From the NCBI GenBank assembly GCA_007693505.1, contig REDL01000045.1, positions 62,001-126,000 of the forward strand: 64,000 nucleotides of DNA, written 5' to 3'. This document shows, in pieces, positions 19,882 through 21,239 of this stretch. This stretch comes from Desulfovibrionales bacterium (GTDB lineage Bacteria; Desulfobacterota; Desulfovibrionia; Desulfovibrionales; Desulfonatronaceae). A program made the position numbers and the translations under genes. Each line of letters starts with the position of its first letter. The stretch's first letter is position 1. The notes beneath the pieces are model-generated. The model was not told where the DNA came from. It saw only the letters and a list, made by a program, of their open reading frames with translations, and ran no database searches.

Positions 19882-19957
19882 GGGTCACTAGCTCAACTGG
19901 CAGAGCAGCGGACTCTTAATCCGGAGGTTCAAGGTTCGATTCCTTGGTGACCCACCA
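19882..19957 (+). tRNA. tRNA-Lys (anticodon CUU)
   Basis: The acceptor stem GGGTCAC (19882-19888) pairs with GTGACCC (19947-19953), followed by discriminator A and an encoded CCA. The anticodon loop is CTCTTAA with anticodon CTT, and the T-loop is GGTTCGATTCC. One anticodon-stem base pair (the outermost) appears mismatched. A strong terminator follows 8 nt downstream. Confidence 0.96.
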
Positions 19958-20422: not shown

Positions 20423-20514
20423 TGGCGGAGAGGGAGAGATTCGAACTCTCGGCACGGGGTTAGCGTGCACACGATTTCCAATCGTGCTCCTTCGGCCAGC
20501 TCGGACACCTCTCC
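20423..20514 (-). tRNA. tRNA-Ser (anticodon GGA)
   Basis: The minus strand reads GGAGAGG at 20514 and CCTCTCC-G-CCA at the 3' end, a complete acceptor stem with encoded CCA. The anticodon loop is TTGGAAA with anticodon GGA, flanked by a CACGA/TCGTG stem. The long variable arm (class II tRNA) fits Ser, and the T-loop is TTCGAAT. Confidence 0.96.
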
Positions 20515-20602: not shown

Positions 20603-20785
20603 TTATTCGCGTTTCTCCTGTTTTTGTCTCTTTTTTGACTTCTCCTGCTTCGACTCCGGATTCTTCGGCTGCGTACCGCAACCATTGGCCGGGCCTCAAC
20701 CGGAAAAACCTCCGCCTTTGCGCATAATAAACGCGAAAACGACCACAACCAGGATAATGAAGATCGAAGACAGAATGGTTTCCAT
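20603..20785 (-). CDS. Predicted 60-residue single-span membrane selenoprotein (in-frame TGA read as Sec)
   Basis: The ATG at 20785 follows a perfect AAGGAGG (20790-20796), 4 nt away. The first 29 codons encode METILSSIFI, a continuous hydrophobic helix to about residue 21, then MRKGGGFSG. TGA at 20696-20698 follows. The same frame continues for 30 codons, GPANGCGTQPKNPESK and then a Lys/Glu/Gln-rich tail, to TAA at 20603. A Cys sits six residues after the proposed Sec30, giving U-X5-C. The positive residues after the helix predict a cytoplasmic tail. A SECIS-like hairpin begins directly after the TGA. It lies 28 nt downstream of ruvX and is probably cotranscribed. The function is unknown. 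If TGA is simply a stop, the product is a 29-residue peptide. Confidence 0.72.
20656..20698 (-). promoter_or_regulatory. Candidate bacterial SECIS element downstream of the in-frame TGA
   Basis: After the TGA (20698-20696), an outer CCGG/CCGG stem (20692-20689 with 20659-20656) encloses an internal loop. An inner stem GGTTGC/GCAGCC (20683-20678 with 20672-20667, one G-U) is capped by loop GGTAC (20677-20673). The first loop G is 19 nt after the TGA, within the window known for bacterial SECIS hairpins. The E. coli fdhF element has the same GGUUGC arm and a GGU in its apical loop. In bacteria SelB binds this hairpin to deliver Sec-tRNA. That it works here is inferred. Confidence 0.7.
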
Positions 20786-20813
20786 GACGCCTCCTTGTCT
20801 TTTCCGATCAGGT

Positions 20814-21239
20814 TCAAGGGAGTTGAGACTGTCTGATGCATTCCAGATAGTCGTTGAGGATGACAACGGCGGCCTGTTGGTCGAGCACGGCCTTGATCTT
20901 TCGGCCGCAACGGATCCCCTCGCGCAGATTGCTCTCGGCCTCCACCGAACTGAAGGCTTCGCCCTGAAACACTACCGGCACGTCCGTTCGACGCCGCAGA
21001 CTTTCAGCGAAATTTCGGACCTGGCGGGTCGTTTCCGTATCCTGACCGTTCAGTGCTTGGGGAAGACCAAGCACAATTGTCTGAACGCTCTTCTGGGCCA
21101 CGATGGCCAATAAGTCGGCAAACAGCCGTTCCCGGGTGGTCCGCTCCAGGGTCGCATAGGGATGGGCCAAAAGTCCCAGCCCGTCGCTCAGGGCCAGTCC
21201 CACCCGCTTCGTGCCGTAGTCGATGCCCAATATTCGCAT
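20814..21239 (-). CDS. ruvX: RuvX/YqgF putative pre-16S rRNA nuclease (Holliday junction resolvase-like)
   Basis: This 141-residue RNase H-fold protein starts MRILGIDYGTKRVGLALSD, whose first Asp is a catalytic metal ligand. ETTRQVRNFAESLRRR and the conserved GEAFSSVEAE follow, and the C-terminal KAVLDQQAAVVILNDYL supplies the last acidic residues. In E. coli YqgF acts in 16S rRNA 5' maturation. The length is normal. The proposed selenoprotein follows 28 nt downstream on the same strand, and malic enzyme ends 117 nt upstream. Confidence 0.94.
   Translation of the reverse strand: MRILGIDYGTKRVGLALSDGLGLLAHPYATLERTTRERLFADLLAIVAQKSVQTIVLGLPQALNGQDTETTRQVRNFAESLRRRTDVPVVFQGEAFSSVEAESNLREGIRCGRKIKAVLDQQAAVVILNDYLECIRQSQLP

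Follow-up and report, generated by a model that had tools for sequence, protein, structure and literature searches.

A small gene downstream of ruvX

The window analysed here is a stretch of 64,000 nucleotides of contig REDL01000045.1, from the assembly GCA_007693505.1 of a Desulfovibrionales bacterium (family Desulfonatronaceae). Its minus strand carries a small gene that starts with an ATG at 20785, ends with a TAA at 20603-20605 and contains one in-frame UGA. Read through this codon as selenocysteine (Sec), the gene gives a product of 60 residues, METILSSIFIILVVVVFAFIMRKGGGFSG-U-GPANGCGTQPKNPESKQEKSKKRQKQEKRE, with Sec at position 30 and a Cys at position 36. The usual annotation would give a meaningless 29-residue fragment instead. 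The features of the locus are collected in Table 1.

A sequence-only reading of this DNA had proposed a small membrane selenoprotein at this place. The coordinates that it gave stand, but the strand has to be read as minus; the plus strand over 20603-20785 is unrelated to the selenoprotein gene. The AAGGAGG motif that it had noted 4 nt ahead of the ATG is seen on the minus strand, and translation returns the 60-residue chain that it had suggested, with a Cys six residues after Sec30. The adjacency to ruvX holds as well: the two genes are on the same strand, the selenoprotein gene lying downstream across a gap of 28 nt.

Table 1. Features of the selenoprotein locus, in positions of the window
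Feature	Position	Strand	Basis
Selenoprotein gene, 60 codons and TAA, with in-frame UGA for Sec30	20603..20785	minus	translation and homologs
Ribosome binding site AAGGAGG, 4 nt 5' of the ATG	20790..20796	minus	kept in close Desulfonatronum homologs
Codons of the single membrane helix, residues 2-23	20717..20782	minus	AlphaFold2
UGA codon for Sec30	20696..20698	minus	UGA in 106/106 homologs and Sec machinery
SECIS-like apical hairpin with GGU at the loop	20666..20684	minus	14-32 nt 3' of the first base of UGA; compensatory change in relatives
Codon of conserved Cys36 (Sec+6)	20678..20680	minus	first Cys at U+5/U+6 in 96/106 members
Codons of the Lys/Glu/Gln-rich tail, residues 41-60, predicted disordered and cytoplasmic	20606..20665	minus	composition; pLDDT 55-57
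ruvX, upstream neighbour (genus-level context, not a conserved partner)	20814..21239	minus	Pfam RuvX, E 1e-38 (matched via L009)

Downstream of the gene, on the minus strand, there is a tRNA-Ser (gga) at 20423-20514, which was the only hit above cut-off when Rfam was searched over the locus. Between this tRNA and a plus-strand tRNA-Lys (ctt) at 19882-19957, no obvious gene is seen over about 460 bp.

The single membrane helix and the charged tail of the sequence-only reading both reappear in the structure prediction and in the composition of residues 41-60. AlphaFold2 places a helix at residues 2-23, with a mean pLDDT of about 90 over residues 1-20, while the remainder is modelled at low confidence (pTM 0.36), including the tail, which is predicted to be disordered. 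Over the family described below the mean charge is -0.7 for the N-terminus and +3.4 for the region after the helix, the latter being positive in 85% of members. By the positive-inside rule, a negative N-terminus and a positive tail predict an N-out/C-in protein, whose Sec would lie at the cytoplasmic face of the inner membrane.

Distribution of the family and its genomic context

In Desulfonatronum an alignable homolog is present in 6 of the 7 other genomes, with TGA at the same place in each, and the downstream codons are also kept in all six of these intact homologs. Between the source gene and three close relatives, changes before the UGA fall mostly at third codon positions. When all pairs of six genomes are compared, the differences at first, second and third positions are 57, 13 and 145 before the UGA, and 27, 18 and 52 in the 12 codons after it. 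One relative has a whole codon inserted 3' of the UGA, and in L013 the stem of the hairpin that follows it is altered on both sides (GGUUGCGGUUCGCAACC). The seventh, which is the smallest of these Desulfonatronum genomes, has a copy after ruvX (L034, G002:C107:25807-25884) whose frame is broken ahead of the Sec motif, which reflects either a decaying gene or an assembly error. A scan of genome contigs with the source protein returned only one Desulfonatronum contig, the short-word method being unsuited to it.

The family was followed beyond the genus with three successive profiles: the genus profile detected it in other genera of the order, the second extended it to the phylum, and the third (A3) comprised 22 rows. 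Among 395 genomes sampled evenly across the phylum, A3 finds the family in 171 (43%), distributed over 113 of 246 genera, and all 150 of the matches listed contain at least one in-frame TGA. From these, 106 non-redundant members were extracted for the counts of codons, motifs and hairpins. Six profile matches (L051, L053, L040, L044, L060 and L045) were judged on reading to be chance or unrelated. A viral scan with a single family member found nothing, and neither did a search of plasmids.

In the consensus of the family a short N-terminus leads into a single hydrophobic helix, which ends in N[RK]W-[IVL]-LP[KR]LG[VI]x[ST]; the Sec, the motif MSxSC and a Lys-rich tail follow in this order. The pattern SG-U-GPANGCG, which the sequence-only reading had been unable to assign to a named family, does indeed match none, but it is a local variant of the phylum-wide LP[KR]LGx[ST]-U-MSxSC. 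The first Cys after Sec is at U+5 in 73 members and at U+6 in 23; a Cys occurs within 12 residues after Sec in 101 of the 106 members, and the other 5 have none in this interval. The tail after Sec measures 16-31 residues (5th to 95th percentiles).

Some members and matches depart from this scheme. In four members of one clade (L064, L097, L104 and L124) two in-frame UGAs lie about 23-27 codons apart (PS-U-GAP ... PT-U-DGPSC), and a hairpin is predicted after each of them, less clearly for L097; these genes are predicted to encode tiny double selenoproteins. L037, L042 and L043, all of genus g20, share the pattern MxxIFSIxxLIFVVxFxAKxxRNGGG-U-CPxxxRGGS, in which the TGA is followed by a strong hairpin (CGGGGAGGCUCCCCG in L042), and two of the three have the N-terminal extension MSCSFFGGFG. 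They may represent a further selenoprotein family, related to the first and marked by a UC motif. L055, L062 and L065, one of which is in genome G659, are small TGA-free membrane proteins with Lys/Glu tails, whose helix ends in RGGxGCCGGGHSxx. They have no match in Pfam or NCBIfam and look like Cys (CC) counterparts of the GGG-UC group.

No universal operon partner emerges across clades. At 70 of 95 loci the gene upstream shares the strand, and at 64 of 97 the gene downstream is convergent, so that the selenoprotein gene usually closes a transcription unit. According to the clade, the upstream neighbour is ruvX, purC, gltX, an FmdB-type zinc ribbon gene, cytochrome c7 with ferredoxin-like genes, MerR or a thioredoxin-like gene. 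The cytochrome case belongs to one clade, in which the selenoprotein gene follows a cytochrome c7 gene (Pfam Cytochrome_C7) beside ferredoxin-like and, in relatives, NrfD-like genes. At L058, L087, L095, L106, L109, L123 and L127, which belong to one set of families, the end of gltX (glutamyl-tRNA synthetase) is at most about 20 bases from the selenoprotein start. A cluster of genes, an FmdB-type zinc ribbon gene among them, lies 46-150 nt upstream in 13 loci, and was recorded at L082, L083, L084, L092, L096, L102, L110, L113, L116, L136, L148 and L149; a functional link between this cluster and the selenoprotein gene is possible.

Decoding of the UGA codon

The sequence-only reading would have been contradicted by homologs that all stop at the Sec position, by codons without conservation beyond it, or by a genome lacking the Sec machinery, and the data speak otherwise in all three respects. 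The Sec column is UGA in 106 of 106 non-redundant members and never TAA, TAG or a Cys codon, so that the search for homologs at this position returned the TGA forms that had been anticipated and, within the phylum, none of the Cys forms. These 106 genes themselves end in TAA (38), TGA (36) or TAG (32), and TGA is the stop of 120 of 300 neighbouring genes; if the UGA were an ordinary stop, its fixation would have a probability of about 1e-42, relatedness being ignored. Conservation continues beyond the UGA: the majority residue accounts for 54, 47, 32, 52 and 69% of members at U+1 to U+5, as against 12-16% after the terminal stop. The frame is also kept open: 4 of the 106 members have an in-frame stop within 15 codons of the UGA, and for the two alternative frames the counts are 31 and 58. 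Since six other Desulfonatronum genomes keep both the UGA and the codons that follow, and all 106 members from the phylum keep the UGA, the locus cannot be attributed to chance.

The UGA of the source gene is followed by the hairpin GGUUGCGGUACGCAGCC, within a 71-nt segment that folds with a z of -3.3 (1 of 200 shuffles was as stable). The spacing of this hairpin and its GGU loop resemble those of the E. coli fdhF SECIS. A hairpin was scored in the members when it had at least 6 bp and a G in the first two loop bases, the members not having been selected for folding. By this definition 75% of members have one, compared with 15% of the segments 3' of TGA stops in adjacent genes and 12% of coding segments picked at random in frame, and about a quarter of members lack it. 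The stem sequences are widely variable, whereas a GGA or GGU loop recurs. At a constant offset the stems covary: their pairing exceeds that of column shuffles (z about 8), and several types of pair are seen at each position.

The machinery for Sec insertion is encoded in the source assembly. We found there tRNA-Sec (82 bits; called tRNA-SeC by ARAGORN), SelA (E 3e-163), SelB (E 1e-114) and SelD (E 5e-98); one in-frame TGA is present in SelD and one in the formate dehydrogenase alpha subunit (FdhA). In the phylum SelA is present in 355 of 395 genomes, that is in 163 of 171 family-positive and 192 of 223 family-negative genomes (Fisher p 0.002; one of the 395 is unaccounted for). Among the 8 family-positive genomes without a SelA match, 6 have SelB above cut-off and 1 has a SelB split over contigs; as these carry SelB, incomplete assemblies probably explain the exceptions. 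The eighth, G659, has no SelB either, and the family match there is a TGA-free Cys-rich protein that probably belongs to a different family.

These data bear on a simpler explanation, namely that the UGA is an ordinary stop and the gene encodes a 29-residue membrane peptide followed by a structured 3' untranslated element. The 29-codon part has a good ribosome binding site and by itself contains the complete helix, and a hairpin 3' of a stop could be regulatory. However, an ordinary stop would have to be UGA in every one of the members and never TAA or TAG, and residue conservation would have to pass through it, over a frame that is kept open, and cease at the true stop. Some relatives, moreover, have a second UGA with its own predicted hairpin, and SelA or SelB is present in nearly all family-positive genomes. 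We reject this explanation on the fixation of the UGA and the conservation downstream, and hold it to be scarcely credible. The fixed UGA, the SECIS-like hairpin, the coding conservation beyond it and the Sec machinery of the genomes argue together that the UGA is decoded as Sec, and on this comparison of sequences the gene almost certainly encodes a genuine selenoprotein. What weighs on the other side is the quarter of members without a hairpin of the kind scored here, and the lack of a Cys homolog, which most selenoproteins possess.

Possible functions and known systems

We tend to think that this selenoprotein belongs to a large, unlisted and Sec-only family and acts as a membrane-tethered Sec-Cys redox tail; as to the chemistry, we lean, by analogy and with a shade less assurance, towards a Sec-Cys redox couple at the membrane. 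The N-terminal helix would anchor the protein, leaving Sec at the cytoplasmic face ahead of a disordered, Lys-rich tail. Sec30 and Cys36, and in the family at large Sec and the Cys 5-6 residues on, would form a reversible selenenylsulfide, which could exchange with the thiols of partners or reduce small oxidants at the membrane. The protein would thus be a redox tail that accepts partners, of a reductase or peroxidase type, acting in anaerobes and akin to the disordered tail of SELENOS. Against this stand the 5 members that have no Cys close behind Sec and the want of a conserved neighbour that would point to a substrate.

Two other functions would equally leave the selenoprotein claim in place. 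In one of them, which we regard as unlikely, Sec and Cys bind a soft metal (e.g. Cu, Hg, Ni or Fe) at the inner membrane, in a tiny metal-handling protein. Both residues are soft ligands, and the build is like that of the FeoB-associated Cys-rich membrane proteins, with one helix and then a Gly/Cys motif; two TGA-free low-scoring matches from the same searches fit PF12669 weakly, and FmdB-type zinc ribbons are common upstream. However, each chain has one Sec and usually one Cys, and therefore a metal site needs an oligomer or a partner; neither the source protein nor the A2 members match PF12669, and the neighbours include cytochromes and thioredoxin-like proteins too. Of equally low probability, in our judgement, is the reading that the protein docks, as a small accessory subunit, on a redox complex of the membrane, and that its Sec contributes to, or guards, the active site of that complex. 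Many small single-helix proteins are subunits, and in one clade the cytochrome c7 and ferredoxin-like (in relatives NrfD-like) genes adjoin, but this neighbourhood is not common to the clades and no co-occurring complex appeared in the tests run. With dsrA (dissimilatory sulfite reductase) the family is weakly associated (odds ratio 2, p 0.0008, phylogeny uncorrected), and this settles no pathway.

The protein might also serve as a selenium sensor, giving the 29-residue anchor when selenium is low and the 60-residue form when it is sufficient, the difference being the signal. As the UGA falls where the helix gives way to the tail, both products are plausible; against it, neither a regulatory partner nor a conserved gene downstream is seen, and the conserved Cys and motif after Sec suggest chemistry rather than mere control of length. 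We give this reading very little credence, and retain the membrane-tethered Sec-Cys redox tail as the working proposal.

That the protein fits no named family, as the sequence-only reading had held, is borne out for Pfam, for NCBIfam release 20 and for the 119-family prokaryotic inventory of 2026. No match above curated cut-offs was obtained in Pfam or NCBIfam release 20, and the matches below cut-off, to TMEM208, YesK and DUF6747 of Pfam and to NCBIfam models, were dismissed as low-complexity helix matches. The PDB contains no related chain. Our searches of the open literature found no description of such a family. The 2026 inventory resembles the present case in its in-frame UGAs and bacterial SECIS elements, and many of its families occur in the same phylum, but it lists no 45-60-residue single-helix protein with such a motif (PMC13188914).

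Nearly all known selenoprotein families have Cys homologs. The authors of deep-Sep state that the method may miss selenoproteins without them (PMC12013277). Tiny size and lack of Cys homologs would explain why the family was missed: a 29-codon fragment is discarded by gene callers, and programs that look for selenoproteins require Cys homologs. We consider this probable, jointly with the wider reading of the family given at the end of this section. Present in 43% of the sampled genomes of the phylum, the family would rank with the commonest selenoproteins there, but neither the current family libraries nor the 2026 inventory include it, which points to a systematic blind spot for tiny selenoproteins without a Cys homolog. 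As Sec is never swapped for Cys, the question of why selenium is used rather than sulfur becomes testable in a protein of 45-60 residues, within reach of peptide synthesis.

Two known groups invite comparison. The FeoB-associated proteins of PF12669 likewise have about 50 residues, one N-terminal helix and then a Gly/Cys motif, but among our sequences only the Cys-rich outliers L038 and L057 match this family, weakly and below cut-off, and the source protein and A2 members do not. FmdB-type genes are frequent upstream neighbours of the new family, and Sec forms of FmdB itself have been described in ocean metagenomes (PMC2398784); the new family, however, has a membrane helix and no zinc ribbon.

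The closest likeness in build is with the eukaryotic SELENOK and SELENOS, which are small and have a single N-terminal membrane helix and a disordered, Gly-rich and positively charged cytosolic tail that holds Sec. The tail of the new family is positive and predicted to be disordered, but is Gly-rich only just before Sec, in Desulfonatronum. For SELENOS, a review describes a single transmembrane segment, a disordered cytosolic tail and a disulfide in the Sec-to-Cys form, in which a Cys partners the Sec position as the Cys at Sec+5/+6 would in the new family, and the titles that it cites indicate a reductase activity in vitro (PMC10650576). The Sec of SELENOK and SELENOS is second or third from the C-terminus, whereas that of the new family is usually 16-31 residues from it; the new family has a bacterial SECIS, no Cys forms were found for it in the phylum, and the likeness drawn here is one of build. 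We judge it probable that these tiny membrane proteins form a Sec-only family that spans the phylum, a bacterial counterpart in build of SELENOK and SELENOS and one of the most widespread, though overlooked, selenoproteins of the phylum. Since Cys never takes the place of its Sec, these anaerobic bacteria, which cycle sulfur and metals, would require selenium chemistry itself for a function not yet described, exerted on the cytoplasmic side of the membrane.
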